A program made the translations under genes and the position numbers. Of a stretch of 64,000 nucleotides of DNA, positions 11,735-45,296 are shown piece by piece. The DNA comes from Chloroflexota bacterium (GTDB taxonomy: Bacteria; Chloroflexota; UBA6077; SHYK01). The notes under the pieces are model-generated. The model was not told the origin of the DNA. It was given only the letters and a program-made list of their open reading frames with translations, and did no database searches. The stretch lies in assembly GCA_035652535.1 (NCBI GenBank), contig DASRDP010000009.1:1-64000 (forward strand), in the 5' to 3' direction. Numbering within the stretch: position 1 is the stretch's first letter; each line of letters begins with the position of its first letter.

Positions 11735-12418
11735 CTAGCAGCCGGGCGGCGGTGGGAAGATCAGAATGCAGGGAGAGCCAGGCGGATACGGTGGTGGGTA
11801 TGGGGGGGCCGGACAGCCGCTCTGGGGCCCGAAGCATGGTCGCATCGGCGCCACCCCGGGCCCTGTCAGCGACGACGCGACGCGCCCCTCCAGGAGCACG
11901 GTGACCGTGGCGTGCGACCATCCGTCCACGGGCGAGTGCGCGTACACATAGAGCGTGTGCGGGCCCGGGACCAAGCTTGTGGGCGTCCAGGTGAAATTGA
12001 AGCCCGAATATGCGAAGGCCGAGTTGCCGAGAACGATGGCGACGTCGGGCCGGGGGGCGCCATAGTCGGCAGTGCCCAGAGGCGGCGTGCTTCCGGCGCC
12101 CATCTCCTCGTCGAGGTAGATGATCACTCGGTCCACGCCGGTCCCCGGGCCGGCGGGATCGGCAGCCCATCCGCCCACATTCAGCGGAGTGCCGTTACCG
12201 ACTCGATCGCCATCTGTCGGCGTGTCGACGCTGATTTGCACCTGCGACGCCGGGGTGGTCTGCCCCTGCGCTTCCGCATGGAGCGGCCCAACCGCGAAGA
12301 TCAGGGAGGTCGAGATGAGGGCAGCGAGCTTCTGTGCGATCCGCGGTATCCTCCCGTCACTCCAAGGGGTGTGGAGGCGCGCGCGGATTCGACGAATAGC
12401 CGTTTGGTTATTCCGCAT
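11735..12418 (-). CDS. Secreted protein with an Ig-like domain
   Basis: A 227-residue exported protein. Its N-terminus is Arg-rich with a hydrophobic segment IAQKLAALISTSLIFAVGPLHAEAQ, cleaved probably after AEA. One beta-sandwich domain follows: QISVDTPTDGDRV, LNVGGWAADPAGPGTGVDRVIIYLD, then a strand VPGPHTLYVYAHS. This 'benefit-from-displacement' Ig-like pattern is common in secreted proteins. A Cys/Pro-rich tail (PPYPPPYPPGSPC) closes the protein. No enzymatic motif is visible. The start is uncertain; the ATG at 12418 lacks a clear ribosome site, and the frame is open to 12535. Confidence 0.6.
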   Translation of the reverse strand: MRNNQTAIRRIRARLHTPWSDGRIPRIAQKLAALISTSLIFAVGPLHAEAQGQTTPASQVQISVDTPTDGDRVGNGTPLNVGGWAADPAGPGTGVDRVIIYLDEEMGAGSTPPLGTADYGAPRPDVAIVLGNSAFAYSGFNFTWTPTSLVPGPHTLYVYAHSPVDGWSHATVTVLLEGRVASSLTGPGVAPMRPCFGPQSGCPAPPYPPPYPPGSPCILIFPPPPGC

Positions 12419-12564
12419 TTGGGACGCCACAGAAAGAGCCGAAAGTCGAGCAGGTGCTGATGCGCGAGGATAGCGCCCGGATCGACAGCGTGTCAAAGTC
12501 GCGCACGGTGGTATGCTCGCATCAGTGCGAGCCACGCGTCGTTGAATCCGTTTTGGAGTGGGCC

Positions 12565-28820: not shown

Positions 28821-29384
28821 CTAGGCGCCCTCCTGTCGCTTCAGGAGTTTGCGCAACTCCGACAGGGCCCTGTGCTGCATGACCCGGACGTTTGTCTCGC
28901 TCTTGCCCATTGCGATCGCGATGTCGCGATGGGCAAGATCTTCGAGGAATCGCATCACCAGAACCTGCTGGTGCTCGGGTCTCAGCTCGCGAATCAGCCG
29001 ACGCACCAGATGGTAATCGGCTCGCGTCTCCGCCAATCCTTCGACGTGGTCGTCGGATGGCCAATCAATCTGATCCGACTCGAGCGAAGCCGTCGACTTG
29101 TTGCGGCGATAGAAGCTTACGACCAGATTGTGGGCGATGGTCAGCAGCCACGCGACGAACGGTGTGTTGGTCTGGCGGTACCGACCCAGAGCGCGCCACG
29201 CCTGGAGAAATACCTGTTGGGTTAGATCCTCGGCGTCCTGCCTCTGCCCGACGCGATAGGAGATGTGGCGATAGATTCGATCGAAGTAGTGGTCGTAGAG
29301 GCTGGTGAATGCATGCTCATCCCCGTCGACCGCCCTTGCGACCAGATCCGCTTCCCACTCTTGCGCCAGAGTGGCTTCGGTCAC
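28821..29384 (-). CDS. ECF-type RNA polymerase sigma factor
   Basis: A 187-residue sigma-70 family factor with regions 2 and 4 only. Region 2 runs over about residues 18-85 (HAFTSLYDHYFDRIYRHI, DAEDLTQQVFLQAW, PFVAWLLTIAHNL). Region 4 runs over about 125-180 (IRELRPEHQQVLVMRFLEDLAHRDIA, then helix-turn-helix GKSETNVRVMQHRALSELR). The start is the GTG at 29384 with GGAGG five bases upstream; an ATG at 29546 would extend the protein by 54 unrelated residues. No anti-sigma factor is adjacent. It shares a 210-bp divergent region with the repair operon and might regulate it. Confidence 0.9.
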   Translation of the reverse strand: MTEATLAQEWEADLVARAVDGDEHAFTSLYDHYFDRIYRHISYRVGQRQDAEDLTQQVFLQAWRALGRYRQTNTPFVAWLLTIAHNLVVSFYRRNKSTASLESDQIDWPSDDHVEGLAETRADYHLVRRLIRELRPEHQQVLVMRFLEDLAHRDIAIAMGKSETNVRVMQHRALSELRKLLKRQEGA

Positions 29385-29594
29385 GATGCCTCCGGAAGCG
29401 TCGGGGTGCGCCGGTGACGGCAGCGCGGTCCGAGGTCCTGGCGCAATCCAGATCCATGCATCCCCAGAGTATAGGAAACACGCCGCGCAGTCCCGCGCCG
29501 GATCAACGGCTGAGGTGAAATAGCCCACGATGGCCTCCTGGTACACTCAGCACGATCTCGGCTGTCCGGTACAGTAGCGAGTGGGAGATTCGGC

Positions 29595-30743
29595 GTGACG
29601 CTCGACGTGTTTCGCGTAGGCTCGCAGCTTGCCGCCATGGGGCAAGAGCTGCGTGACCATCGCGAGGCGCGGGCCGCGCGCCTGAGCGCCGCGCGCGGCG
29701 TCTTCGCCCGCCTCTCCGACGATTGGGAGCGCATGGCGTCGGCCGCGCGCTCGGGAGATCGATCTGGGGCGGCGCCGCTCGGGCCGCTCAGCTCAGCCTC
29801 CGACCGAGGCGCTGCGCCCCCGTCGTATCTCGTCATGGCAACAGATGGGTCGACGATTGAGCCCGATCGGCACGGCCCCGCGATGTGCGCCCTCGTGAAC
29901 ATCGGTCGTGCACGGATCCGCTACGGTGACGCCCCTGAGGCCGAGCTCGATTCGGAGCCAATCCTGTACTTCCGGCGAGAGGAGCTATTCATTGAGCAAG
30001 GCGGCCGTCGGGTCCTCCTGCGCCAGCGCCTCCTGGATGCGCGCCGAAGCGTTTTGGAGATGGAGGCCCTCAGCGAGATGGCTCGGGACGCCAATCCACT
30101 GGCGTTGCCGAGCGTTGCGCTGGCGGACGGGCTGCTCACGATCTGGCGCGAGGATTGGGCGACCCAGGACGGGGACGAGGTGATTGCCCAGTTCAACCGG
30201 GCGCTGGCGCGGATCGCCGACGTGAAATTGCCGCTTGCCGCGTACGTCAGCAATCCGTCGAGCCATTGGGTCGTGGACCTCTTGCGGTCGGCGGTCCAGT
30301 GCGTCAAAGGGTGCGGTGCGCTGTGCCAGGAGACGGGCTGTGTCTTCGGCGGACTCGTCGACGCGGAGCTGTATCGCTTCCTGCAGCCGGGCCAGGCGTC
30401 GACGCTTTTTGAGGTTGTCGGTCCGGACCAGCATCGTTACGATGAGCGCGTGCGATCCCACTTCTTCTACCTCAACGTCGGGCGGGAGATTGTTCGCGTT
30501 GAGGTGCCTGCCTGGGTGGCCAGGGATGAGGACGCGCGGCGGCTCGTCCATAATGTGGTGTTCGACCAGGCGGAGCGGGGCTTGGGCTATCCGGTCGCGC
30601 TTGCACGCGCCCATGAGCAAGCCGTCATCAGCGGGCGGGACCGTCTGGCGTTCCAGCAGCTCGTCATCGAATCCCTGACGCGAGCAGGCTTGGGCGCCGG
30701 TGTGTCGGAGAAGCAGGCGAGCAAAACGCTCAGGGCAGTCTAA
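29595..30743 (+). CDS. nurA: NurA-type 5'-3' nuclease
   Basis: A 382-residue NurA-domain nuclease. In archaea NurA works inside the HerA hexamer to resect double-strand ends. Family motifs are visible: first catalytic Asp in ATDGS (D84), second Asp in ALADGLL (D178), AYVSNP near 217, and the late conserved His in YPVALARAHEQAV. A central Cys cluster (CVKGCGALCQETGC, about 236-249) is a notable extra and could bind metal. The start is the GTG at 29595 with GGGAG eight bases upstream. It is the first gene of the run that continues through herA, mre11 and rad50, which strongly supports the assignment. Confidence 0.85.
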   Translation: MTLDVFRVGSQLAAMGQELRDHREARAARLSAARGVFARLSDDWERMASAARSGDRSGAAPLGPLSSASDRGAAPPSYLVMATDGSTIEPDRHGPAMCALVNIGRARIRYGDAPEAELDSEPILYFRREELFIEQGGRRVLLRQRLLDARRSVLEMEALSEMARDANPLALPSVALADGLLTIWREDWATQDGDEVIAQFNRALARIADVKLPLAAYVSNPSSHWVVDLLRSAVQCVKGCGALCQETGCVFGGLVDAELYRFLQPGQASTLFEVVGPDQHRYDERVRSHFFYLNVGREIVRVEVPAWVARDEDARRLVHNVVFDQAERGLGYPVALARAHEQAVISGRDRLAFQQLVIESLTRAGLGAGVSEKQASKTLRAV

Positions 30744-30820
30744 GCGCCAGGACGTGAGAGTTCGCGGGCGTGGCGCAGGTGCTTCTGCGAAACCGATGAT
30801 TCCTACGCGGTCCCTGCCTG

Positions 30821-31498
30821 TTGAGATTGGAGTCCAATCGCATCGTGGAGACACAGAACGGATCGGCGGCCACGACGAGCCGGCGAGCTGGCGAAGTTGT
30901 GGGCACCAGCGTGGCGGAATTCGAGGCCCAGGCATCGAAGCTGCACGCCGCACCGCCCATCGGCACGCTCGTTTCCGTGCGCTTGGATCCCATGACCGTC
31001 TACGCGGTCGTCGCGGGATCCTGGACGGACGGGATCGACGTCGGCGCGCGGCCGGTGCTGCGGGGACGCGACGGGTGCGAAGACGCCCAGATCTATCAGG
31101 CGCATCCTGATCTGGAGTTCGTCCTTCGGACGTGCTTTCGCAGCCTGGTCGTCGGCTTCCGCGATGGATCGGGCCGTCATCAGTACCTTCCTCCCATTGC
31201 CGTGCCGATCCACTACTCCGTGACCGTGTGCTCCCACGACGAGGTCGAGCGCTTTGCCGCGGAGATGCACTACTTTCGTACGTTGCTGGAAGCGCAGAAC
31301 GCGCCGAACGAGGACGTGATCGCGACCCACATCCGGCTGGTCGCGTCGATCAGCTCGCCGCCGCGCGGACCCTCCGAGTACCTGGTACGGGCCGGACGAG
31401 AAGTGGCGACGCTTCTTCGCGACGATCATCAGCGCCTTCGCGCGATTTTGCAGCGCATTCGCCCGGCCGAGACCTCGTCGTCGTCCATGCTGGCATGA
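30821..31498 (+). CDS. HAS-barrel-like protein of the NurA-HerA operon
   Basis: A 225-residue protein with no catalytic motif. Residues 45-135 look like a small beta barrel of HAS type (PIGTLVSVRLDPMTVYAVVAG, ARPVLRGRDG, then QYLPPIAVPIHYSVTVCS), similar in style to the N-terminal barrel that precedes HerA ATPase domains. The C-terminal 70 residues are mostly helical (LVRAGREVATLLRDDHQRLRAIL). It may be a structural partner of HerA or NurA; this rests on fold impression and position. It sits 77 bases after nurA, and its TGA overlaps the next ATG by four bases. The start (TTG 30821 or GTG 30845) is uncertain. Confidence 0.6.
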   Translation: MRLESNRIVETQNGSAATTSRRAGEVVGTSVAEFEAQASKLHAAPPIGTLVSVRLDPMTVYAVVAGSWTDGIDVGARPVLRGRDGCEDAQIYQAHPDLEFVLRTCFRSLVVGFRDGSGRHQYLPPIAVPIHYSVTVCSHDEVERFAAEMHYFRTLLEAQNAPNEDVIATHIRLVASISSPPRGPSEYLVRAGREVATLLRDDHQRLRAILQRIRPAETSSSSMLA

Positions 31499-32445
31499 TC
31501 GAAGCGCACGGCCTCATCAAGCGCTTCGGCGAGAAGCGAGCGCTCAATGGGATGACCTTCTCCGTTCCGGAGGGGCGAATCTATGGCCTGCTCGGCCCGA
31601 ACGGCGCAGGGAAGACCACGACGATGCGGATCCTCGCCTGTCTGCTCAATCCCGACGGCGGAAGCGCATGGGTCGCGGGCGTTGACGCGGCGCGGAACCC
31701 GGAGAAGGTGAGGTCGACCATCGGCATCTTGACGGAGGTCCCCGGTCTCTATGACCGGCTCAAGGCCGGCGAGTATCTGGACTTCTTTGCGCAGATGTAC
31801 GGATTGCAGGGGTCGCAGCGACGGGCGCGAATCGAGGGCCTGATGCGGCTACTGGATATCTGGGATGCGCGGAACGAGCGGCTCCGCAGCTTCTCCAAGG
31901 GGATGAAGCAAAAGGTCGCCATCGCGCGCGCCCTGATCCACAGGCCCCAGGTCCTGCTATTCGACGAGCCCACCGCGGCCCTGGATCCGGAAGCGGCCAA
32001 GACCGTGCGCGACCACATCGTCGATTTGATTCGCACCGAGCGGTGCACCGTGCTGCTCTGCACGCATAATTTGGCGGAGGCGGAGCAGCTGTGCTGGAGG
32101 ATCAGTATTGTCCAGCAGGGGAGATCCATCGCCGAGGGGACGCCGATCGAGCTCAAGGCGATGGCTGCTCAGGCGGTGCGATTGTCCCTGCGCGCGGTTC
32201 TGCCCAACTACGTGGCGGTGGTCCACGCGACGCCGGGCGTGGAGGCGCTGGCTACCGAGAACGGCACGATCACATACCGCACAACGGACGCCGCGTCTGT
32301 CAATCCCCGGGTGGTGCGCCAGCTCGTCGAAGCCGGGGCAGACGTTTTGTCGTTGCAGCTCGAGGCGATGGGCCTCGAAGACGCGTATCTCCACGTGATG
32401 AGAAAGGGGGAAAGTGACCCGAACACTCCTCGTGACCCGACGTGA
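31495..32445 (+). CDS. ABC transporter ATP-binding protein embedded in the repair operon
   Basis: A 316-residue ABC-2 type exporter ATPase. Walker A is GPNGAGKTT (about 34-42), the signature is the variant SFSKGMKQ (about 132), Walker B is LLFDEPTAALDP (about 155), and the switch His is in CTHNL. A C-terminal regulatory segment of about 100 residues follows, as in daunorubicin- and bacitracin-type exporters. The ATG at 31495 overlaps the previous stop (ATGA). The gene overlaps the permease by 32 bases. The pair forms a standard two-part exporter of unknown cargo, expressed from inside a DNA-repair operon. Confidence 0.9.
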   Translation: MIEAHGLIKRFGEKRALNGMTFSVPEGRIYGLLGPNGAGKTTTMRILACLLNPDGGSAWVAGVDAARNPEKVRSTIGILTEVPGLYDRLKAGEYLDFFAQMYGLQGSQRRARIEGLMRLLDIWDARNERLRSFSKGMKQKVAIARALIHRPQVLLFDEPTAALDPEAAKTVRDHIVDLIRTERCTVLLCTHNLAEAEQLCWRISIVQQGRSIAEGTPIELKAMAAQAVRLSLRAVLPNYVAVVHATPGVEALATENGTITYRTTDAASVNPRVVRQLVEAGADVLSLQLEAMGLEDAYLHVMRKGESDPNTPRDPT

Positions 32446-33229
32446 GCTGACCGAAGTCGTTCGGGACTTCAACCTCGTCGGGCCCATCTTCATCCTCCCC
32501 ACCCTCATGGCGCTGATCGTCTCGCTTGGCCTGTACGGGACGTCAACCGTCGACACGGGGACGGTCAGCATCGTCGTCGGCAGCGTCGGTGTCGAGCGCA
32601 TGCCACCCGCATGGTCCAACGCCTTTCTGCAGCTGAGCGAGGCCGACCAGGCGAAGACGGTCGGGAAAGCGCTCAAAGCGCTCACCCTTCCGCTGTTCTG
32701 GATCGTCACGGTCGCGCTCACGGCGACGGTGGCGGCCGACAGCTTCGTCGGCGAGAAGGAGCGCGACACCCTCGAGCCGTTGCTGGCGACGCCCATCGGC
32801 AACGGCGCCCTCTTTTTCGGCAAGCTCATGACCGCGGTCGTCCCAGCCGTCCTCGGGACGTGGTGGGGGACTGCGATCCTGGCGGTCGGGATCTGGTTCT
32901 CCGGCAACCAGTATTTCCCGCACCTGCTCCTCGCCGACCCGGAATGGACGGCATCGACCTTCATCATCGTGCCACTGATGGCCCTGATGTCAGCGAGCGT
33001 GGCTGCCCTGATCTCCACGCGGGTAGCGACGTATCGCGCAGCCTATCAGCTCAACGGACTCATCGTTCTTCCCATCGTCGCCTTTATGATTCCGCAGACG
33101 GTGGTGCTCTTCTTCCTCACCCGCCACGCCCTGTGGGTCCTGGGCACCGCGTTCGTGGCGCTCGACGTTTTTCTGATCGCAACCGCCATTCGGTTTTTCG
33201 ACCGCGAGCGGCTCCTGGGCGGGAGATGA
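32414..33229 (+). CDS. ABC-2 type transporter permease embedded in the repair operon
   Basis: A 271-residue membrane protein with about six helices, near residues 21-41, 92-112, 130-165, 180-200, 215-237 and 240-262. A cytoplasmic loop between the first two carries the typical EKERDTLEPLLATPI segment of ABC-2/NatB-like permeases, where the subunit contacts its ATPase. The start is a GTG at 32414 inside the end of the ATPase gene. Its TGA overlaps the herA ATG (ATGA). Cargo is unknown. Confidence 0.87.
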   Translation: MTRTLLVTRRELTEVVRDFNLVGPIFILPTLMALIVSLGLYGTSTVDTGTVSIVVGSVGVERMPPAWSNAFLQLSEADQAKTVGKALKALTLPLFWIVTVALTATVAADSFVGEKERDTLEPLLATPIGNGALFFGKLMTAVVPAVLGTWWGTAILAVGIWFSGNQYFPHLLLADPEWTASTFIIVPLMALMSASVAALISTRVATYRAAYQLNGLIVLPIVAFMIPQTVVLFFLTRHALWVLGTAFVALDVFLIATAIRFFDRERLLGGR

Positions 33230-34884
33230 ACCATTCCATGAACCCGAACGAAGGTCGCCCGCTCGCCGTCGTCGTCGATGGCACGCTCACCAAAGGGATC
33301 ACGGCGAACTTGGACGCCGACTGCTCGGTCGAAGATGTACGGGTGGGGCAATTCGTCAAGATTCACGGCGAAAAGTACGACTTCTTCTGTCTCGTCACGG
33401 ACGTCATGCTCAACGCCGCGAACGCCGACGTGCTGGCGAACCCGCCGGACCCCAGCGATGCGTTCACGCGCCTGGTGCTCCAAGGAACGAACCTCTTCGG
33501 GTCGGTCTCCCTGCAGCCGATGCTGATGCTCGGCAAGATGCCGGCGGCGGAGACCGACCCGTCGGAGCTGGGCCAGGCCCTGCCGGTTCGGACGGTTCCC
33601 GTCCACTTCGCGCCGGTCAGCCTCGCAGGTCGCGCCGATTTCGATCGCGTGTTCGCTCAGCCGGGGGATTCCTCCTGGCAAGTCGGCACGCCCAGGGACA
33701 TGGATATTCCGATCCTCCTCGACCTCGAACGCGTCGCCGAACGCTCCAACGGGGTTTTTGGCAAGTCTGGCTCCGGTAAGAGCATGCTCACCCGCCTCCT
33801 CCTCTGCGGGCTCATCCGGAGCGACCGGGCGGTGAACCTTATCTTCGACATGCACAGCGAGTATGCGTGGCCGAAACCTGACCGGGGCGCGGTGCTCCGG
33901 AGCCTGACCGACCTCTTCGGTCGCCGTGTTGCCGTGTACACCCTCAAGTCGAACCGCCCCCGCCCGATCGGCCACAAGTCGGATGGGGACATCGCCATCG
34001 GTATGAACGAGATCACGCGCGACGACGTCGTGCTGCTGTCGGAGCTGCTGAACCTGAACGAAACGGCGCTCGAGACCATTCATCTCCTCGAAACCGAGTT
34101 CAGGGAGGGGTGGCTTCTGAATCTCCTAGAAATGGACACGCCGGCCATCAAGGACTTTGCCGATCGGGCCGGAGCGCACCCGGCCGCCGTGGGGGCGCTG
34201 AAGCGCAAGCTGAGCCAGCTGCAGCGACTGGATTTCGTGATTTCGGAGTTCCGTTCGCCGGAGGCGTCGTCCATCAGCCACATCGTCCGAAGCCTCTCGA
34301 GCGGGCGCAGCGTCGTCCTAGCGTTCGATCAGGAGGGTGACCTCCTCCAATACATGCTCGTCGCCAACATCATCACGCGGCGCATCCACGACAAGTGGCG
34401 GACCGACTCGCAGCTCGCGGACGCCGAGAATCGCGAACGTCCACGGCAGCTCGTCGTGACCATTGAGGAGGCGCACAAGTTCTTGAGCCCGAGCGCTGCC
34501 CGGCACACAAGCTTCGGCCAGATCGCCCGGGAGCTGCGCAAGTTCAACGTGACGCTCCTCGTCGTCGATCAACGTCCGTCCGGCATTGACCCTGAAGTGC
34601 TCTCACAGATTGGCACGCGATTCAGCTGCCAGCTCAACGACGAGAACGACATCGCGGCAATTCTCGCCGGCGTGAGCGGCGCCTCCCATCTCCGGTCCGT
34701 CCTCGCGTCATTGGATAGCCAGCAAGAAGCCATCCTGCTGGGACACGCGGTGCCGATGCCGGTGGTGGTGAAGGTCCGCACGATCGACGAAGCTTTCTAC
34801 GCGGACGCGACGGCGAGCGATAAGCGCATGGACCTTCCCACCGGCCGCGGTCTGCTCGACATGGCCACGCTTCCGGACGATTGA
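33226..34884 (+). CDS. herA: HerA-type DNA translocase ATPase
   Basis: A 552-residue HerA/DUF87 hexameric ATPase. The N-terminal HAS barrel is at about 11-130 (AVVVDGTLTKGITANLD, VGQFVKIHG). Walker A GKSGSGKS is at 179-186, followed by an LIFDMHSEYAWP strand. Walker B with its catalytic acid is at about 410-418 (LVVTIEEAHKF). The sensor region VDQRPSGIDPEVLSQIGTRF is typical of the family. HerA pumps DNA and powers NurA during end resection. The ATG at 33226 overlaps the permease stop; a second ATG at 33238 is possible. Its stop overlaps the mre11 ATG (TGATG). Confidence 0.92.
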   Translation: MNHSMNPNEGRPLAVVVDGTLTKGITANLDADCSVEDVRVGQFVKIHGEKYDFFCLVTDVMLNAANADVLANPPDPSDAFTRLVLQGTNLFGSVSLQPMLMLGKMPAAETDPSELGQALPVRTVPVHFAPVSLAGRADFDRVFAQPGDSSWQVGTPRDMDIPILLDLERVAERSNGVFGKSGSGKSMLTRLLLCGLIRSDRAVNLIFDMHSEYAWPKPDRGAVLRSLTDLFGRRVAVYTLKSNRPRPIGHKSDGDIAIGMNEITRDDVVLLSELLNLNETALETIHLLETEFREGWLLNLLEMDTPAIKDFADRAGAHPAAVGALKRKLSQLQRLDFVISEFRSPEASSISHIVRSLSSGRSVVLAFDQEGDLLQYMLVANIITRRIHDKWRTDSQLADAENRERPRQLVVTIEEAHKFLSPSAARHTSFGQIARELRKFNVTLLVVDQRPSGIDPEVLSQIGTRFSCQLNDENDIAAILAGVSGASHLRSVLASLDSQQEAILLGHAVPMPVVVKVRTIDEAFYADATASDKRMDLPTGRGLLDMATLPDD

Positions 34885-36119
34885 TGAAGGTCGTCCACAC
34901 TGCGGACCTGCACATCGGCATGGAGACCCACGGCCCAATCGATCCGCAGACCGGCTTGCCGCGTCGCCTCGACGATTTTCTGGCCTCGCTCGACCGGATC
35001 GTGGACGCGGCCATCGATGGCCGCGCCGATCTCGTCGTCATGGCGGGCGACATTTACAAGTCGCGAGACCCCTCCCCGACTCACCAGCGGGCGTTCGCCC
35101 GTCGGATTCTGCGACTGGCGAGCGCACGCGTTCCGGTGTTTCTGCTGGCCGGCAACCACGACGTGCCCAATGCGGTGAGTCGCGCGACGTCCATCGACAT
35201 CTTCCACGAGCTGGAAGTGGCAGGGGTCACGGTCGGCCGCCAGCCCGACTGCCACCGGGTCGACACGCCATCGGGCCCGGCCATCATCGCCGCGCTTCCC
35301 TGGATCACCCGAAGTGTCGTCGTGGCGCACGAGGGCGCTCAAAATCTCTTGTCGAGCGATTTCGAGCGCTACATCGCCGACTTTGTGGTCAAGGTCGTGG
35401 GGGCGTTGGGCGAGCGCGTCGAGGAGATGCGCGGCGATCCCGAGTTGCGGACGGCGCCAGCCATCCTCGTCGCTCACCTGCACGCCCAGGAGGCGCGAGA
35501 CGGCGCGGAGCGAATGCTCACCGTTGGGAATGACCCGCTGATTCCTGCCAGCGTGCTCACCGTACCGCCTTTCGACTACGTTGCCCTTGGCCACATCCAT
35601 GCGCACCAGTCCTTCGGTTCGCAGCCACCCGCCGTCTATCCGGGCAGCATCGAACGCGTGAACTTCGGTGAGGAGCTGGAGGACAAAGGATACGTCGTGG
35701 CCGAAGTCTCGAAAGGCCACGCCGAGTGGGAGTTCTTCCCCGTTCCCGCGCGGCGCTTCCTCACGATTCCAGTCAAAGCGACGGGCGATGACCCGACGGC
35801 CGTGGCGCTGCGGCAGATCGATCGCCATCGGCCGGAGATCGATGACGCGGTGGTGCGCCTGCGAGTCGAGCTGACGGCGCAAAATGAGGCGCTCTTCGAC
35901 GAGGGGCGCGCGCGGGCCGCCTTGGCCGGCGCCTTCTGGATCGCCGAGATCTCGCGGCAGGTCGATCGACCGGCGCGCACCCGGTTCGCGGGCGCGTCGG
36001 TGGAGGGCAAGACGCCCATGGAGCTACTCGACGAATTCTTCTCGGCGAAACAGCTTCCGTCCGACGAACGGGAGCGCCTCCGCTCGTACGCGCAGCGCCT
36101 GATTCAGTCCAGGCTTTGA
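34884..36119 (+). CDS. Mre11/SbcD-type DNA double-strand-break nuclease
   Basis: A 411-residue calcineurin-like exonuclease/endonuclease subunit. All metal-site motifs are intact: DLH (D8, H10), GD (D56) in AGDIYKS, GNHD (N91, H92), then the His in AILVAHLHAQE and the GHIH motif in VALGHIHAHQ. The C-terminal 90 residues (ARAALAGAFWIAEISRQVDR) would carry the Rad50-binding helices. It is coupled to herA by a TGATG overlap and followed seven bases later by rad50. Together they form the complex that recognises and trims broken DNA ends. The archaeal naming is chosen because of the herA-nurA context. Confidence 0.93.
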   Translation: MKVVHTADLHIGMETHGPIDPQTGLPRRLDDFLASLDRIVDAAIDGRADLVVMAGDIYKSRDPSPTHQRAFARRILRLASARVPVFLLAGNHDVPNAVSRATSIDIFHELEVAGVTVGRQPDCHRVDTPSGPAIIAALPWITRSVVVAHEGAQNLLSSDFERYIADFVVKVVGALGERVEEMRGDPELRTAPAILVAHLHAQEARDGAERMLTVGNDPLIPASVLTVPPFDYVALGHIHAHQSFGSQPPAVYPGSIERVNFGEELEDKGYVVAEVSKGHAEWEFFPVPARRFLTIPVKATGDDPTAVALRQIDRHRPEIDDAVVRLRVELTAQNEALFDEGRARAALAGAFWIAEISRQVDRPARTRFAGASVEGKTPMELLDEFFSAKQLPSDERERLRSYAQRLIQSRL

Positions 36120-36126
36120 GCCTAGC

Positions 36127-38685
36127 ATGATCCCCCTCCGTCTCGAGATTCGGAACTTCCTGTCCTATGGCGATCGACCGCCGCCCCTGGACCTCGACGG
36201 TGTCCACGTTGCCTGTCTCTCCGGCGCCAACGGGAACGGCAAGAGCGCCCTGCTCGATGCCATGGTGTGGGCGCTGTGGGGAGAGCCGCGGGGCGGGTCG
36301 CGCGCGGGAGACGACCTCGTCCGGCACGGCGCCAGCGAGATGTCGGTGGCGCTGGAGTTCTTGATGGACGGCGGCCGCTACCGCGTGACGCGGCGGCGCA
36401 CGGTGCGCAATCGCAGCGGTTCCACGGAGCTGCGGTTCGAGGGCTTCGACGGGTCAATCTGGCGGCCGCTCGCCGAAGGCAGCGTCGGCCAGACACAGGA
36501 CGCCATCAGCCGCCTACTCCGCATGACCCACGACACCTTCGTCCATGCGTCGTTCGTTCAGCAGGGGAAAGCCGACGCATTCATGCTCATGACGCCGCAG
36601 CACCGAAAGCAGGTGCTCGGCGACATCCTCAACCTTGGCCAGTACGACGAGCTTGCGGACGCCGCCCACGCGGCGATGCGAGAGGCCCGCGCGAGCGCGG
36701 ATCGGTTGAGCGGCCAGATCCGCGCGGCGGAGGCCGAGCTGGCGCGTCGGGAAGAGTTCGAGCGCGCGCTTGCCGACAGCATTCGCGCCGAAGCGGACGC
36801 GCAACGCGAGGTCGATGAGCTGACAGCGGAGCGGACCGCCCTGGTCCGCGAGGTCGACCGACTCGTCGGGGTCGATCGGCAAGCCGCCGAGAAGCGCGCC
36901 GCTCGCGAGATCGCCGGAGATCGGGTCCATGGCCTCGAGAAGCAGATCGAGGAGCTGGCGCGGCAGGTAGCCGAAGCGGCCGCGACCGAGTCGCGCGCCG
37001 GCGAGATCGAACGGGACTTCGCCGCGTTCCAAAAGGCGGACGAGCAAGAGCGTGACATGGCGGGCCGCTTTCAGGCCTGGTGTCAGGCTCGTGACGAGCT
37101 GCAGCGCGTCGAGTCTTCCGTCGATCGGGAGCGCGGCCGCATCCAGGCAGAGCTGACCGCGGCGGAGAACAGGGCCGCTGACGTCGAGCGCCGCCTGGCG
37201 GGCGTTGAGTCAGCTCAGGCCAAAGCCGAAGCGATCCAGGCCGACATCATTCGCTATGACGCGTTGGCGCGCGAGGACGAGGACGCGCGCAAGGCCTTTG
37301 ACGCCGCGAACGAGAGGCTTGCCGTCCTTCGCCGGGAAGGAGAGCGTCTGAAAGAAGAGCCCGATCGGGTCCGGCAGCGGCTGGAGCTGCTGGGGCAGAA
37401 CGATACTTGCCCTCTCTGTGGGCAGGAGCTTGGGGCCTCCGGTCTCGCAGCCGCCCACAAGAGGCTCACCGAAGAGCTTCGCGAAGTCGAGCGCCAGCTG
37501 GAGCGCGCCCGGGCGGATTATCTTGCGCAGCTGAAGGTGACCAAGAGCGCACAAGAACGCGCCGCGTCGCTCCGTGAGCAATTGAACGGGCGCGCGGCGA
37601 TCGAGCGCGAACTCGGCGACCTGCAGGCGCAGCTTCGGCACGCAGAAGAGGATCGGCGGGCGCTGACGGAGGTCCGCGCAGTGGCCGCGGCGTATCGCCA
37701 GGCGCTGGAATCCAACGACTACGCGTTGGAGGCCCGCTCGCGCGTGGCACCGCTTCGCCAGGCGATGCAAGCCACCGGCTACGATCCTGAAGCGCATCGC
37801 GCGTTGCGCGAGACCCGCGAGCGGCTTCGCGACGCCCCAGACAGCATGCGAGCGCTCGACGCCGCCCGCGCGACCATCCAGACGGCGTCCGCGCACCGAG
37901 CGGCGCTCGATGCCCAGCTGGCGGCAGTCCATGCCGAGGTGTCGAGGCTCGATCGGGAGACGGACGTGCTGGTCCAGGAAGCCGCGGCGTTGCCTGCCAA
38001 GCGGTCCGCCCTCGCCGCGAAAGAGGCTGAGTTGCAGGAGAGCGCCGCCGCGCACCGCGCAGCGGCCCAGCGCGTGGGGGAGGCGAAGCAGATGGTCTCC
38101 TGGCTGAACGCCAGGGCTCGAGAGGTTGAGGAGCAGAAGCGCAACCTCACGCACTGTCTCGAGGAGGTCTCCGCCTACACCCAGCTCGCCGACGCCTTCG
38201 GCAAGAGCGGAATTCAGGAAATGATCATCGACCAGGCTCTGCCCGAGATCGAGGATATCGCGAATGAGCTCCTCTCGCGTCTCACGAGCGGCCGCATGCG
38301 GGTCAGGATGCAGACGCAGCGTCCGGGAAGGACGGGCGGAACGGTGAGCACGCTGGACGTCCTGGTGTCTGACGAGCTGGGAACACGCCCCTACGAGCTG
38401 TTCTCCGGCGGCGAGAAGTTCCGGATCAACTTCGCCATCCGCATCGCCCTCTCCAAGCTCCTCGCGCGTCGGGCGAATGCGCCGCTCCAGATGCTCGCCA
38501 TCGACGAGGGATTCGGGAGCCAGGACCGCGAGGGTTGCGACCGTCTCGTCGAGGCGATTCGAACCGTTCAGGCCGACTTTGAACGGATTCTCGTCATCAC
38601 CCACCTCGACGACCTGAAGGACGCGTTTCCCGTCCGCATCGAGGTCATCAAAGGACCTGGCGGATCCACCTTCGCGATGACGTAA
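36127..38685 (+). CDS. Rad50/SbcC-type SMC-like ATPase
   Basis: An 852-residue DNA-end-tethering ATPase. The N-terminal lobe has Walker A GANGNGKS (33-40) and a Q-loop near FVQQGKADAF. A long coiled coil leads to the zinc hook CPLC at 428-431, almost exactly mid-protein, and a second coiled coil returns. The C-terminal lobe has signature LFSGGEKFRI (about 760) and Walker B LAIDEGFGSQD (about 790), then the D-loop and VITHLDDLKD. Length and symmetry match intact SbcC/Rad50 proteins. It is the last gene of the repair operon; 169 bp follow before the LysM gene. Confidence 0.94.
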   Translation: MIPLRLEIRNFLSYGDRPPPLDLDGVHVACLSGANGNGKSALLDAMVWALWGEPRGGSRAGDDLVRHGASEMSVALEFLMDGGRYRVTRRRTVRNRSGSTELRFEGFDGSIWRPLAEGSVGQTQDAISRLLRMTHDTFVHASFVQQGKADAFMLMTPQHRKQVLGDILNLGQYDELADAAHAAMREARASADRLSGQIRAAEAELARREEFERALADSIRAEADAQREVDELTAERTALVREVDRLVGVDRQAAEKRAAREIAGDRVHGLEKQIEELARQVAEAAATESRAGEIERDFAAFQKADEQERDMAGRFQAWCQARDELQRVESSVDRERGRIQAELTAAENRAADVERRLAGVESAQAKAEAIQADIIRYDALAREDEDARKAFDAANERLAVLRREGERLKEEPDRVRQRLELLGQNDTCPLCGQELGASGLAAAHKRLTEELREVERQLERARADYLAQLKVTKSAQERAASLREQLNGRAAIERELGDLQAQLRHAEEDRRALTEVRAVAAAYRQALESNDYALEARSRVAPLRQAMQATGYDPEAHRALRETRERLRDAPDSMRALDAARATIQTASAHRAALDAQLAAVHAEVSRLDRETDVLVQEAAALPAKRSALAAKEAELQESAAAHRAAAQRVGEAKQMVSWLNARAREVEEQKRNLTHCLEEVSAYTQLADAFGKSGIQEMIIDQALPEIEDIANELLSRLTSGRMRVRMQTQRPGRTGGTVSTLDVLVSDELGTRPYELFSGGEKFRINFAIRIALSKLLARRANAPLQMLAIDEGFGSQDREGCDRLVEAIRTVQADFERILVITHLDDLKDAFPVRIEVIKGPGGSTFAMT

Positions 38686-39714: not shown

Positions 39715-40608
39715 TCAGTGGCGGCCATCGGTGGCGCTCTGAATGAGGTCGAGAAGCGCTGCGTGGAGGAGTCCATTGGACGCGAGGGTCGTGCCGCCGT
39801 AGACACTGGCCTCACCCTGAAAGTCGGTAAATCTCCCCCCGGCTTCCTCGACGATGAGTCGTGCCGCGGCCGTATCCCACGGGGCTTCGCCGATCATGAC
39901 CACCGCGTCTACGCGGCCAGCCGCCAGCGCTCCGTATGAGTACAGGTCGAGAAATCCTGGGTTGTGATATGTGGACGCGATCAGCTGGCGGATGACCTCA
40001 CCCCAGCCCCGCCGGGCGAACTCGGACTCGTTGGCGTAAACGACGTAGGCGCGATCGAGCTGCGACACGTCCGACACGTGGATTGGATTCCCGTTTAGGT
40101 CGGCCCCGTCGCCGCGTTGGGCCGCGAAGGTCTCTGCGAGCGCGGGCAGGTGGATGACGCCCGCCACGAGGTCGGCGTCACGCTCCAATGCGACACACGG
40201 TCCGAAAAAGGGGAGGCCGCGGACGAACTTCTTGGTCCCATCTAGCGGATCAACGATCCAGCGGCATCCATCGGCGACGGGCGTCAAGGGCGCGCCGGTC
40301 GTGTAGCTCTCCTCGGCAAGAAATTCACACCCCGGACACCGCTGGACGAGCACCTCTCGGATGATCCGCTCCGAATCGCGGTCCGTCGCGGTAACGGGAG
40401 TGTCGTCCGTCTTGAATTCGACCGCGTGCCATCGGCGGAATCGTCGGCGCTGGAGCCGGCCCGCGGCGCGCGCGGCCTCCAGCGCGGCGGTCAGCTCCGT
40501 CGACCGTAGCGGTGCGCTCAGCTCTGGCTCCCCCGACCGGATGCGCCCCGGCCATCCCCGTCTGACCCGGTCTTCGCCGGAAATGCGCACTGCGCGGATA
40601 CGGGGCAC
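39715..40608 (-). CDS. Inositol monophosphatase-family phosphatase
   Basis: A Mg-dependent sugar/inositol/histidinol-phosphate phosphatase. Motifs are DTPVTATDRDSE, FLAEE, WIVDPLDGTKKFVRG (the metal-binding D-P-L-D-G-T) and the late APWDTAAARLIVEEAGG. Among subtypes it resembles HisN-type histidinol phosphatases and generic IMPases equally; no his genes are nearby. The domain begins near LSAPLRSTELTAA, so the first 30 residues from the GTG at 40608 may not be translated. They overlap the end of nth in another frame, and GTG 40590 is an alternative start. It is the last gene of the minus-strand run that starts at 45262. Confidence 0.85.
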   Translation of the reverse strand: MPRIRAVRISGEDRVRRGWPGRIRSGEPELSAPLRSTELTAALEAARAAGRLQRRRFRRWHAVEFKTDDTPVTATDRDSERIIREVLVQRCPGCEFLAEESYTTGAPLTPVADGCRWIVDPLDGTKKFVRGLPFFGPCVALERDADLVAGVIHLPALAETFAAQRGDGADLNGNPIHVSDVSQLDRAYVVYANESEFARRGWGEVIRQLIASTYHNPGFLDLYSYGALAAGRVDAVVMIGEAPWDTAAARLIVEEAGGRFTDFQGEASVYGGTTLASNGLLHAALLDLIQSATDGRH

Positions 40609-41264
40609 GTCGAACAGCGCGGCCGTTGTGCCTTACAGATTTGGCGGCCATGGGTGATGAGGAGCATGTGGAACGCATACACGAGATCGGCCGGCACCGC
40701 GGCTTCGAGCGCCATGTGCGCCTGCTCCGCGCTCGTCTTGTCGCCAACCAGGCCAATTCGTTGGCTGACGCGGAGCACGTGCGTGTCGACGGGCATCGCA
40801 GGCTTGCCGCACGCGAAAAGCAGAACGCACGCCGCGGTCTTTGGCCCCACCCCGTCGAGCGATCGGAGAAACGCTCGACCTTCCTCCAGCGGGACGTCTC
40901 GCAGGTAGGAGAGGTCCAGCTCGCCGAGGCGGTCCGTAACGCTTCGCAGGATGTTCTGGATGCGGGCCGCCTTGATGTCCGCGAGCCCACCGGATCGAAT
41001 CGCGTCCGCCACCTCCGAGACCGGGGCCCGGGCGACTGCGGTCCAATCCCCTCGGTACCGGTCCATGAGCTGAGCGAAGGCGCGATCGGAGTTCACGTCG
41101 GCAGTATTCTGGGAAAGCACGGTCTGAATCAGCTCGGACAGCGGGTCCTGAAGCGGGCGGGGACTCGGAGGCCCATAGAAGACCATCAGGCGATGGCAGA
41201 TCTCGAGCGCGTGCTCACGGACGCGCTCGTCCTTTTCGGGACCGGCCGCGACGTCCGACCTCAC
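40518..41264 (-). CDS. nth: Endonuclease III-like DNA glycosylase/AP lyase
   Basis: A 248-residue base-excision repair enzyme for oxidised pyrimidines. The helix-hairpin-helix is LDGVGPKTAACVLLFACG, with catalytic Lys at K142. The catalytic Asp is D160 in MPVDTHVLR. The four iron-sulfur cysteines are C210, C217, C220 and C226 in the C-x6-C-x2-C-x5-C spacing. The start GTG overlaps the TGA of the upstream DUF4340 gene (GTGA), so translation is coupled to an unrelated transport operon. It is slightly longer at the N-terminus than E. coli Nth and may act as a divergent Nth/MutY-family member. Confidence 0.92.
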   Translation of the reverse strand: MRSDVAAGPEKDERVREHALEICHRLMVFYGPPSPRPLQDPLSELIQTVLSQNTADVNSDRAFAQLMDRYRGDWTAVARAPVSEVADAIRSGGLADIKAARIQNILRSVTDRLGELDLSYLRDVPLEEGRAFLRSLDGVGPKTAACVLLFACGKPAMPVDTHVLRVSQRIGLVGDKTSAEQAHMALEAAVPADLVYAFHMLLITHGRQICKAQRPRCSTCPVSAQCAFPAKTGSDGDGRGASGRGSQS

Positions 41265-41908
41265 TGCGACGTAGACGGGGCGGGCAGCCCGACGGTCGGC
41301 GTTGGCGTTTGGCTGGGCCTTGGCGTGGCGTCGGCGGCGGATTCCGATGCTCCCGCGACAGCTTCCGTTGGCGTTGCCGTCACCACTGGCGTTGGGATGG
41401 GCGGCTCGCTCACCAGCTTCTCGATATCGCCGACGAGCAGTGTGTTGATCGTGTGCAGCTCGCCGCGGCCCTCCACCATCGCGTAGTAGGCGGCACCGTT
41501 CGGCGTTTTTGATCCCACGAGCACGCGGATCGTCTTGCCGTCCTTCATGGACAGCGTCGCCTGGTCGGCAGCCGGCGAGAGGCCGTATTGCGCCAGGTCG
41601 CCGGGTTTGTCGGTAACCTTGGCCGAGCTGCGCAGCTTCACCAGACGATTGACGACGCTGCTCACGCGGCTCAGGTCCGCCTGATCGCCACTGTCGGCGA
41701 ACTTCCAGCCAACGGGCTCCGCGCGCTCGAATGCCTGACTCCCCGCCGAGGTCTGAACGTCGAGCCGCTGCACGTCCGTGTCTTTGGCGTCGACGATGTA
41801 CGTCGGGGCGCCCTCTGCGGCCGGCGCTGGCTGCGTCTTTTCGATGGCGAACACGCCGGCTGCCAGGACGGCGAATGCGACGACCATGAGGACGGTGTTA
41901 CGGGCCAT
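41261..41908 (-). CDS. DUF4340 membrane-anchored protein of a Gld-type ABC system
   Basis: A 215-residue protein with an N-terminal membrane helix (residues 4-21, TVLMVVAFAVLAAGVFAI) and a DUF4340 beta domain. The latter has the typical VSSVVNRLVKLRSSAKV, LAQYGLSPAADQATLSMKDG and YYAMVEGRGELHTINTLLV. A short Thr/Pro tail ends the protein. DUF4340 proteins regularly follow GldG-like genes, as here (four bases after the gene at 41912). The role is probably periplasmic assembly with that complex; no activity is known. Confidence 0.85.
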   Translation of the reverse strand: MARNTVLMVVAFAVLAAGVFAIEKTQPAPAAEGAPTYIVDAKDTDVQRLDVQTSAGSQAFERAEPVGWKFADSGDQADLSRVSSVVNRLVKLRSSAKVTDKPGDLAQYGLSPAADQATLSMKDGKTIRVLVGSKTPNGAAYYAMVEGRGELHTINTLLVGDIEKLVSEPPIPTPVVTATPTEAVAGASESAADATPRPSQTPTPTVGLPAPSTSQ

Positions 41909-41911
41909 GGG

Positions 41912-43519
41912 TCAGCGCCGCATCCACCAGATCACGCCGCCCACGCCGAGGATGACGAGCGGGAAGAACACGGCGCTCGAGAAGAAAACAAAGTTGCCCT
42001 GCGCTGGCGTGAGAAAGACGGTGCGCTGCTGATCGATCCGTGGGCGGGTCGTGATGAGCTGGTCCGTCTGCGTAATCCAGTTCAGGGAGTTGAGAATGAA
42101 GTCGCGGTTTGCGATCTGCTGCTTGATGAGCCCATTGACGCCCATCTCTGAGCTGCCGATGATGACCGCTCGGTTCTTGACCTTCTTGTTGGGATCCTCG
42201 AACCCGGGGGGCGGCTCCTCGGCCGGTGGATTTTCGACTTGCTCGACCGCCACGGCCAAGGTGAGCGGCCCCTTCTTGTCTTCCCCATCGGTGTACTGGA
42301 GTTTGGAGCGGTCCGTCTCGAGCCACGACCGGTCACCAGAGGTCAGCGCCAGTCCGCTGATGTCCACACCCTTCTTGATCAGGTTGGGAATCTCGATGGA
42401 AGTAGAGAACGGCATCAGCGAGATGGTGCCCAGGTCTTTGACAATCGTGTGGAGTCCGTACCGCTGGACGATGATGGCGAGCGGATCCTGTCCGAGAGCG
42501 CTCACCGGGTCCACGGCCACGCCATCTCCGATGTTGAGGTCCCAGCGTTTGATCAGCTCGCCGACGTTCGAGTCGGTCTGGAGGGGGTCGACGAAGAGGA
42601 GAAGACGGCCGTTGCCGTCCAGGTAGTCGTTCAACGCCTTCAGCTCGTCGTCCAGCAACGCCGTCTTGGGGGCTGCGATGATGACCGCCTTGGCGTCGTC
42701 GGGCACTTTCCCCGTCGAGAGGAGGTTCAGCGATTCGACGACGTAGTTGTCCGCCTGGATTTGCGTTTTGAGGTCCGAATAGCCTTCGTCCTGGAAATTG
42801 TCGAGGTCTCGCTCGCCGTGTCCCGTCAGGTAGTACACCTTGAGCGGGGTTGGGTTGACCAGCTTCAACAGCGCGGTCGTGATGTGCGCCTCGTCAGTGG
42901 TGATGGAATCCTGCTTCGGATCGTCGGGCCCGGTCTTGCCGGCCCAACGAAATCGAATCGTGCCGTCGACGTTGACGCCGGCGAGCTTCGTTTCGGCCGG
43001 GTTCATGTTGAAGTCGACGGTCTCCCACGTGAGCATGCCGTTCGATCGCGCGGCGTACTCCTTCAAGAGATCTTCGACTTTCTGGGCGTCGGGCAGCGAG
43101 GAGGAGAAATAGGCGGTTGCGTGGACTGGTGCCGGCAGGTCTGCCAGGAGCTTGAGGGTCGCCTCTGAAAGGGAGAAGTCGCGCTGGGCAGTGAGGTCCC
43201 AGCGTTCGTGGTAGCGATTGGCCAGGACGTTGACGAGAGCCAGGATTCCGATCATGGCTAGGCACATGACAAACGCGTTCGATCCGTACTGCGATTCGCG
43301 GCTCGTAACGTTGCCCCAGGCTTTCGCCGGATCAATGGCGATGTACATACCGAAGCAGAGGATCGCCACAGCGAGCGCCAATCGGGAGAGGACGCTGAAT
43401 TCCCCCGCGACGAGGGCCGAGCCCGCGGCGACCAGAAGGGCCAGCCCGCTCACGAGGGCCAGCGGCCCACGTGCCCGATCCAGCCAGCTCTGGTGCGTCA
43501 TCGTTTGCTGAGGGATCAT
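41912..43519 (-). CDS. GldG-like ABC-system auxiliary membrane protein
   Basis: A 535-residue protein of the ABC-type uncharacterised transport (GldG, DUF7088 plus ABC_transp_aux) family. Three N-terminal helices (about 17-37, 43-62, 84-102) precede a large extracytoplasmic region with FSLSEATLKLLADLPAPVHATAY, then a Rossmann-like domain (VYYLTGHGERDLD, VIIAAPKTALLDDELKALNDYL). A final helix lies near the C-terminus (FFPLVILGVGGVIWWMRR). In gliding Bacteroidetes, GldAFG forms a transporter required for motility; elsewhere cargo is unknown. It is encoded between the permease and the DUF4340 protein. Confidence 0.88.
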   Translation of the reverse strand: MIPQQTMTHQSWLDRARGPLALVSGLALLVAAGSALVAGEFSVLSRLALAVAILCFGMYIAIDPAKAWGNVTSRESQYGSNAFVMCLAMIGILALVNVLANRYHERWDLTAQRDFSLSEATLKLLADLPAPVHATAYFSSSLPDAQKVEDLLKEYAARSNGMLTWETVDFNMNPAETKLAGVNVDGTIRFRWAGKTGPDDPKQDSITTDEAHITTALLKLVNPTPLKVYYLTGHGERDLDNFQDEGYSDLKTQIQADNYVVESLNLLSTGKVPDDAKAVIIAAPKTALLDDELKALNDYLDGNGRLLLFVDPLQTDSNVGELIKRWDLNIGDGVAVDPVSALGQDPLAIIVQRYGLHTIVKDLGTISLMPFSTSIEIPNLIKKGVDISGLALTSGDRSWLETDRSKLQYTDGEDKKGPLTLAVAVEQVENPPAEEPPPGFEDPNKKVKNRAVIIGSSEMGVNGLIKQQIANRDFILNSLNWITQTDQLITTRPRIDQQRTVFLTPAQGNFVFFSSAVFFPLVILGVGGVIWWMRR

Positions 43520-43559
43520 GGCGCAGCTCCTTTGCGCGGCTGGAGGACAGCCACCTGGC

Positions 43560-44273
43560 TCATCGCCATCGCCGGGCCGAGATGATCTGCGTCGTGATGA
43601 AAAGGCAAGCGATGATGACGGTCACGAAGAAGACGATGTCTTTGGTGTCGACGACGCCTCGAGGCATGTCCTCGAACCGCTTGGTGATGCTGACGTATTG
43701 AGCGACCTGGCCGGGGATGCCGGTGAACTGGCGCGAAAGCGAGTCGCTGAGCCACAGCAGGAGCAGCGTGACGAACGTCACCGCCGCGGCGATGATCTGG
43801 TTCTGTGTCAGCGCTGACGCCATCAAGCCAATGGCGAGAAACGCCATCCCCTGCAGCATGACGCCGAGGTACCCGCCGACCATGGGTCCCCGGTCTGGAT
43901 TTCCGAACATGTTGAGGAGCAGTGGGAAGTAGAGGGTCATAGCCAGCATGAAGAGGAGGAAGACGACGCTGCCGAGATACTTCCCGAGAACCAGCTCGAC
44001 GTCACGGATGGGCTGCGTGAGGAGCAGCTCGAGCGTGCCCGTGCGGGCCTCCTCCGCGATGAGGCGCATGGTCAGCAGCGGACCCGCCAGGAGGAAGGTG
44101 ACGCTGAAGTTGTTCAGGACCGGTCGCAGGTCCGCCTGTCGACTCTGTGGAATGATGATTCCGAAAAGGAATCCCCACATCGCGATCATCACGGCGGTGA
44201 CGACCCAGGCGACCGGCGACACAAAGTAGGAGCGAATCTCCCGCTCCGCGACCGCGGCGACATTACGAATCAT
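43560..44273 (-). CDS. ABC transporter permease, GldF-like
   Basis: A 237-residue ABC-2 type permease with about six membrane helices. The cytoplasmic coupling region reads MRLIAEEARTGTLELLLTQPI, followed by DVELVLGKYLGSVVFLLFML, the standard pattern of GldF and related permeases. It follows the ATPase gene at 44318 by 44 bases and precedes the GldG-like gene by 40 bases. The three, with DUF4340, make one exporter of unknown substrate. Confidence 0.88.
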   Translation of the reverse strand: MIRNVAAVAEREIRSYFVSPVAWVVTAVMIAMWGFLFGIIIPQSRQADLRPVLNNFSVTFLLAGPLLTMRLIAEEARTGTLELLLTQPIRDVELVLGKYLGSVVFLLFMLAMTLYFPLLLNMFGNPDRGPMVGGYLGVMLQGMAFLAIGLMASALTQNQIIAAAVTFVTLLLLWLSDSLSRQFTGIPGQVAQYVSITKRFEDMPRGVVDTKDIVFFVTVIIACLFITTQIISARRWR

Positions 44274-44317
44274 TGGTTTTCAGACTCCAAGGAATTGACC
44301 ACGCATGCGGGCCTGGC

Positions 44318-45262
44318 TCAGGCAGCGGCAGGCTCAGCGGTTACGAGCTGCACGAAGATCTCCTCGAGGCTGACCGAAGCGGGGCGCAGCTCGCGCAGGC
44401 CCCAGCCGCGCTGCACCACGGTTTGCGCGAGCTGTTCGCGGATGTCGCTGCCCAAGGCGCAGTCCACGGCGAACACGTGGCTATCGGTGCCATTGCCGCG
44501 GGCTTTCACCGTCAGAACTTCCGGGATCGCCTGGATCGCCGCCATGATGGCCTCGCACGGGCCGCGGACTTCGACTTCGAGGGAATCGGACCCGCGCATG
44601 CGTCGCTGGAGGTTTTCCGGCGTGTCGATCGCTGCGACTCGACCGCGGTTGATGATGATGACGCGCTGGCACGTCATCGAGACTTCGGGAAGGATGTGCG
44701 TGCTGAGAATGACGGTGTGGGCGCCCGCCAGGTCGCGGATGACTTGTCGCGTCTCGACGATCTGGCGCGGGTCCAAGCCCACGGTGGGCTCGTCGAGGAT
44801 CAGGACTTCGGGGTCCGCGAGCAGCGCCTGCGCGAGGCCGACACGCTGGCGATACCCCTTGGAGAGCTTGCCGATCAGCCGATTCATGACATCGCCGATC
44901 TTGCACTTATCGGCGACGTCGTCGATGCGCGCGCGCCGTCTTCGCCCGTCTAAGCCCCGAATCTTGCCCATGAAGTGCAGATAGCTCTTTGGGGTCATTT
45001 CCGGATAGAGCGGAACCGTTTCGGGCATGTACCCGATGTGCTTTCGCGCCTCGAGCGAATCCTTGAAAACATCATGTCCCGCAACGGTCGCTCTGCCGCC
45101 AGTTGGGGGCATATAACCGGTCAGGATCCGCATTGTCGTCGTCTTCCCTGCGCCATTCGGCCCAAGGAAGCCGAGGATTTCGCCCTTGGGGACATCAAAG
45201 GAGATATCGTCGACCGCGGGGATACGACCGTAGTACTTCGAGAGGTGTTCAACGGTAATCAA
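44318..45262 (-). CDS. ABC transporter ATP-binding protein, GldA-like
   Basis: A 314-residue ATPase with Walker A GPNGAGKTT (about 33-41), signature KLSKGYRQ (about 131), Walker B LILDEPTVGLDP (about 154) and switch His in STHIL. A C-terminal domain of about 90 residues follows, as in GldA/CcmA-type subunits. The start is a TTG at 45262 with GAGG about five bases upstream. It leads the Gld-type operon, which runs through permease, GldG-like, DUF4340, nth and an IMPase-like gene with short gaps or overlaps. Confidence 0.9.
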   Translation of the reverse strand: MITVEHLSKYYGRIPAVDDISFDVPKGEILGFLGPNGAGKTTTMRILTGYMPPTGGRATVAGHDVFKDSLEARKHIGYMPETVPLYPEMTPKSYLHFMGKIRGLDGRRRRARIDDVADKCKIGDVMNRLIGKLSKGYRQRVGLAQALLADPEVLILDEPTVGLDPRQIVETRQVIRDLAGAHTVILSTHILPEVSMTCQRVIIINRGRVAAIDTPENLQRRMRGSDSLEVEVRGPCEAIMAAIQAIPEVLTVKARGNGTDSHVFAVDCALGSDIREQLAQTVVQRGWGLRELRPASVSLEEIFVQLVTAEPAAA

Positions 45263-45296
45263 TGTAGCCTCGCCCGATTATATCAGGGAGCGATTC

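Follow-up and report, generated by a model that had tools for sequence, protein, structure and literature searches.

A standalone HAS-barrel protein, HasX, encoded with HerA–NurA and Mre11–Rad50 in a probable DNA-end-processing unit of Chloroflexota

The four-gene operon for HerA, NurA, Mre11 and Rad50 is already known from archaea (PMC12977600), and HerA–NurA is already known from bacteria (PMC9960219; PMC8708640), with further reports of NurA/HerA in Cyanobacteria, Actinobacteria and Firmicutes (PMC8708640). NurA of Sulfolobus and of Deinococcus binds the HerA ring at its HAS barrels (PMC8708640; PMC9960219), and in the Deinococcus study the HAS barrel was treated as a domain of HerA (PMC9960219). 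Coupling of Mre11 with HerA in Sulfolobus has been reported (PMC2288612). The function of HerA–NurA is contested, and a 2026 study in Thermococcus concluded that resection may not be a function of the complex (PMC12977600); work in bacteria has rested on the two-protein complex of Deinococcus.

The window analysed here is the whole stretch of 64,000 nucleotides from contig C9 of a Chloroflexota bacterium (genome 4.45 Mb, 98% complete). Named genomes with related HerA proteins also belong to Chloroflexota. A first-pass annotation had described a cluster of five genes on one strand, nurA, a HAS-barrel-like gene, herA, mre11 and rad50. The genes and the strand were correct, but two genes of an ABC-2 exporter had been overlooked, and the plus-strand run at 29595-38685 comprises seven genes. 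These are nurA (29595..30743, GTG start, a nuclease of 382 aa); the gene for a standalone HAS-barrel domain with C-terminal helices (30821..31498, TTG start, 225 aa), whose product we name HasX; the ATPase (31495..32445) and permease (32414..33229) of the exporter; herA (33226..34884), for a hexameric translocase of 552 aa with its own N-terminal HAS barrel; mre11/sbcD (34881..36119, 412 aa, starting at ATG 34884 or TTG 34881); and rad50/sbcC (36127..38685, 852 aa). The spacings, in order, are 77, -4, -32, -4, -4 and +7 bp, and almost all neighbours touch or overlap; several overlapping start and stop codons had been noticed earlier. The earlier statement that no gap exceeds 77 bases is true of the seven-gene run only; taken without the exporter pair, the HAS-barrel gene and herA lie 1.7 kb apart. 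Consensus scans found no internal promoter or terminator above chance within the run, which fits the single transcript that we infer from the sequence. An ECF sigma factor gene on the minus strand (28821..29546; PF04542, PF08281) is divergent from nurA and is counted as a neighbour of the unit. The annotated start codons of these two genes are about 48 bases apart, and their promoters may overlap.

The exporter pair is probably a passenger in the operon. The ATPase (PF00005, E 1.6e-30) and the permease (PF01061, E 2.3e-8) were found inside it in two genomes only, those of the window and of locus L045, where they occupy the equivalent position with 60% and 53% identity, respectively, values similar to that of herA; not all genes of the run are therefore functionally related. 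The pair (31495-33229) is absent from L043, a closer relative, which implies either loss or a separate gain. Further along the window, the minus strand at 40518-45277 encodes another ABC-2 exporter cluster, which includes DUF4340 and ABC_transp_aux proteins and is upstream of a gene of the endonuclease III type (40518-41264).

Inspection of the motifs agreed with the first-pass annotation that the nuclease and ATPase motifs of NurA, HerA, Mre11 and Rad50 are intact. NurA matched PF09376 with 85 bits against a cut-off of 21 (E 6.8e-24); D84, E155, D178 and an AHE motif are present, and the three numbered catalytic residues are invariant among eight relatives. A PDB search with the single NurA sequence gave no match. 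HerA (PF01935, E 4.4e-27) carries GKSGSGKS as its Walker A motif and LVVTIEEAH as its Walker B motif, and Pfam, these motifs and the predicted structure all indicate a HAS barrel joined to a RecA-like core. The best PDB fold match of its AlphaFold model (pLDDT 83.5) was Sulfolobus HerA (4d2i, E 2.4e-24). Mre11 keeps the phosphoesterase motifs DLH, GD, GNHD and HxH and exceeded the SbcD cut-off (TIGR00619, 145.4 bits against 77.65). Rad50 (PF13476 and PF13558, AAA_23 and SbcC Walker B) matched SbcC best but remained under the NCBIfam cut-off, with 236 of 478.5 bits for TIGR00618; its Walker A, zinc-hook CPLC at residue 428 and FSGGE signature are intact.

The operon had also been called archaeal-type, which is right for its gene content and wrong for its sequences. 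The window HerA scored 62 bits with Sulfolobus HerA, 57 with Thermococcus HerA and 69 with an antiphage HerA, and it reached 58-77 bits with the NCBIfam HerA models, against cut-offs of 800-970. Judged by these scores it is a HerA of a bacterial branch, not an archaeal-like one, and Mre11 is SbcD-type. A purely archaeal origin of the cluster was considered and rejected on the sequence scores (57-62 bits of HerA with archaeal HerA; the SbcD-type Mre11).

HasX of the window matched no Pfam family, PF09378 included, at E values up to 1. Its earlier identification as a HAS-barrel-like protein was borne out through its relatives, of which 14 of 21 matched the HAS-barrel family PF09378 (best E 1.4e-15), and through the predicted fold. 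The AlphaFold model (eight sequences, pLDDT 78) gave 34 matches in the PDB at E<=0.001, all of them HerA-family chains; a search of PDB sequences with the HasX profile gave no match, and only the fold search did. In the models, the strand order follows the N-terminal domain of HerA through residue 146, after which HasX has helices where HerA has its motor. As modelled, HasX is the fold of HerA's N-terminal barrel without the motor. The hhalign comparison of HasX with the HAS domain of the window HerA was weak (13% and 0.3%), and the link between the two thus rests on the Pfam matches of the relatives and on the fold. We found no description of a separate HAS-barrel subunit of HerA–NurA in open-licence full texts. 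In a Thermosynechococcus MAG (L174), the HasX reading frame is broken by a TAA and may be a pseudogene or an assembly error.

It seems likely to us that the run forms a single operon encoding a machine that processes DNA double-strand ends, in which HasX is an added subunit of HerA–NurA, co-encoded with Mre11–Rad50. The gene set probably trims broken DNA ends. Opening of blocked or hairpin ends would fall to Mre11–Rad50, of the SbcD-SbcC type; the duplex would pass, threaded and pumped, through a HerA hexamer and would be cut by NurA, docked as a dimer on the HerA ring. HasX, as a free copy of the collar fold on which NurA docks, would help to join NurA to the HerA ring or to gate it there, adding to the NurA–HerA interface or replacing part of it; this is the simplest reading of a HAS-barrel protein tied to both genes. 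That the proteins form a physical complex, that HasX takes part in docking, and that ends are resected with a given polarity are all inferred.

The distribution of HasX, which co-occurs almost obligately with NurA and HerA, bears on this role. NurA and HerA are not rare in the phylum, where 99 of 151 genomes have NurA. HasX occurs as type A (63 genomes) and type B (34 genomes), and one or the other was present in 93 of the 99 genomes with NurA and in 2 of the 52 others in the phylum (Fisher 1e-30, uncorrected for shared ancestry). Two of the six NurA genomes lacking HasX have weak NurA matches, and in another the gene is on a 5.6 kb contig that ends there. Among 20 genomes with the window-type HerA, from at least eight phyla, HasX was present in all and NurA in 19; the groups with HasX and this HerA include Cyanobacteria, Sericytochromatia, Zixibacteria, Armatimonadota, Thermodesulfobacteriota, Dadabacteria and Gemmatimonadota. 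Alternatively, HasX could be an independent regulator or loader outside the enzyme, for example a DNA-binding small barrel that controls the complex or recruits it transiently. HAS-like small barrels are counted as DNA-binding domains (PMC12839542), and HasX, nurA and herA lie apart in Cyanobacteria and in some Chloroflexota, as such a regulator would allow. We hold this to be distinctly unlikely: HasX and nurA are immediate neighbours in 44 of 61 genomes of type A, the HasX gene is flanked by nurA and herA in two lineages, and the HasX fold is that of the domain of HerA on which NurA docks.

The linkage of HerA–NurA with mre11-rad50 is apparent from the gene maps of the window and its relatives. 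The type A order is nurA-HasX-herA, followed by mre11-rad50 in the window, in four other genomes of its taxonomic order (L043, L045, L047 and L048) and in a Chloroflexota MAG (L096) that is near-identical to L048. A fifth genome of the order, L199, has HasX-herA-mre11-rad50, with nurA on another contig. The comparison of gene order shows the unit to be conserved among these relatives. Other Chloroflexota carry type B, with the same five kinds of genes in a different order, mre11-rad50-nurA-HasX-herA; its small protein between nurA and herA is homologous to HasX (hhalign E 2e-7 and 5e-6). Type B is archaeal-like, with 164 bits between its HerA and Thermococcus HerA and an Mre11 that matches a Pyrococcus-type model best. 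The HerA tree places six of the seven HerA proteins linked to mre11 in a single clade (99/96) and those of type B in a second one (100/99); all seven corresponding Mre11 proteins fall in one group of the Mre11 tree, and the Mre11 and NurA trees also set type B apart. Since HerA, NurA and Mre11 of type B each form a separate clade, the linkage with Mre11–Rad50 occurs in two distinct lineages of these genes. In a third arrangement (L204, 759-7842), divergent sequences are ordered nurA-herA-mre11-rad50, and no HasX was detected.

These maps also concern the possibility that Mre11–Rad50 is an ordinary SbcCD that merely shares the operon and acts separately on hairpins. Such a reading agrees with the SbcD score of Mre11 and with the many relatives that have nurA-HasX-herA without mre11-rad50 (other Chloroflexota classes, Gemmatimonadota, Handelsmanbacteria and Latescibacterota). 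It is nonetheless very improbable, since the herA-mre11 junction is kept in five relatives of the same order and type B joins other gene lineages in another order. The conserved unit and its gene content give good genomic support to the predicted joint role in DNA-end processing. We regard as evenly balanced the broader proposal that many bacterial HerA–NurA systems are three-subunit machines, in which HasX would be obligate and would adapt the two-fold NurA to HerA's six-fold ring, the trio having joined Mre11–Rad50 in at least two gene lineages within one phylum. Three things appear to be new: HasX as a standalone partner, how widely it occurs, and the two separate linkages with Mre11–Rad50.

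The first-pass annotation had offered a defence-type system as its alternative. The proteins would then form a nuclease against phages or plasmids, in which HerA pumps foreign linear DNA into NurA and Mre11–Rad50 serves as the end sensor, comparable to HerA-DUF4297, SIR2-HerA and TdpAB. The window HerA did match PADLOC HerA models, its best PDB sequence match was the SIR2-HerA antiphage protein, and T. kodakarensis HerA–NurA cleaves both strands, in the study that questions resection (PMC12977600). Nevertheless we consider a defence role unlikely. NurA occurs in 66% of the sampled genomes of the phylum, the HerA tree follows lineages, and the neighbouring genes are housekeeping genes of metabolism and repair. 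In addition, HasX had no match in 50,697 phage records and HerA none in 72,556 plasmid records, these being the pairings searched. No SIR2 or DUF4297 partner is present, and the antiphage HerA scores, 78 and 62 bits, were far under the cut-offs of 800 and 850.

For the end-processing machine proposed above, it matters which other resection routes the organism has. A search of the genome for recBCD or addAB found a complete AddAB: AddA and AddB on contig C36 are open frames with helicase and nuclease domains, and the suspicion that the pair is broken, raised by a flagged TGA, was rejected for this reason. RecJ and RecO are present as well. HerA–NurA is thus not the sole candidate resection system in this genome. 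The earlier annotation had set AddAB together with a non-conserved cluster against its own proposal; AddAB is present, but the cluster is conserved. Single-protein searches did not find AddB in five genomes of the same order that carry the cluster, and a divergent AddB could be missed by them; AddAB therefore appears as the patchy element and the HerA–NurA unit as the conserved one. Two of these five genomes carry instead a large protein that combines an IrrE peptidase, a UvrD helicase and a PD-(D/E)XK nuclease (L197, 4630-8058; L198, 1042-4965). On C36 (L040, 2886-12889), the intact AddB-AddA genes adjoin a second SbcD-like phosphoesterase and an AAA_27/YhaN-like ATPase, a pair that is transcribed toward them.

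Should bacteria normally have a third subunit, resection and the destruction of foreign DNA could be tested against each other with all the components present, in Cyanobacteria and Chloroflexus as tractable organisms. The separate linkage of two different HerA–NurA lineages with Mre11–Rad50 is independent evidence for joint action of the four enzymes.

Compared with known systems, the locus shares with the anti-phage systems HerA-DUF4297, SIR2-HerA and TdpAB the pairing of a HerA-type hexamer with a nuclease or effector, but its partner is NurA and not SIR2 or DUF4297, it is broad in the phylum, and its neighbours are ordinary genes and not those of a defence locus. In the CRISPR-linked nurA-csm6-herA of Pyrobaculum, nurA and herA likewise flank a third gene, which there is csm6 (PMC3396285). 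A nearer parallel to that arrangement is the second HerA of the window's genome, at a CRISPR locus on contig C82 (L041, 1-15367) that has an array of 22 repeats with Csa1/Cas4, Csa2/Cas7, Cas3 and Cas6; this divergent HerA (12128-14059) adjoins a gene product of some 420 aa that weakly matches PD-(D/E)XK. With SbcCD the window pair has in common an Mre11 over the SbcD cut-off and a Rad50 with the CPLC hook, whereas its Rad50 is under the SbcC cut-off and the pair is co-encoded with HerA–NurA. Deinococcus likewise has a bacterial NurA and HerA, studied there as a two-protein complex and said to belong to bacteria without RecBCD/AddAB (PMC9960219); in the window HasX and Mre11–Rad50 are linked to them and AddAB coexists. 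The archaeal herA-mre11-rad50-nurA operon of Sulfolobus and Thermococcus has the same four kinds of enzymes in one run, including a HerA with HAS barrel and RecA core and a NurA nuclease, but the window differs from it in its bacterial-branch proteins, its SbcD-type Mre11, its gene order and its fifth conserved protein, HasX.
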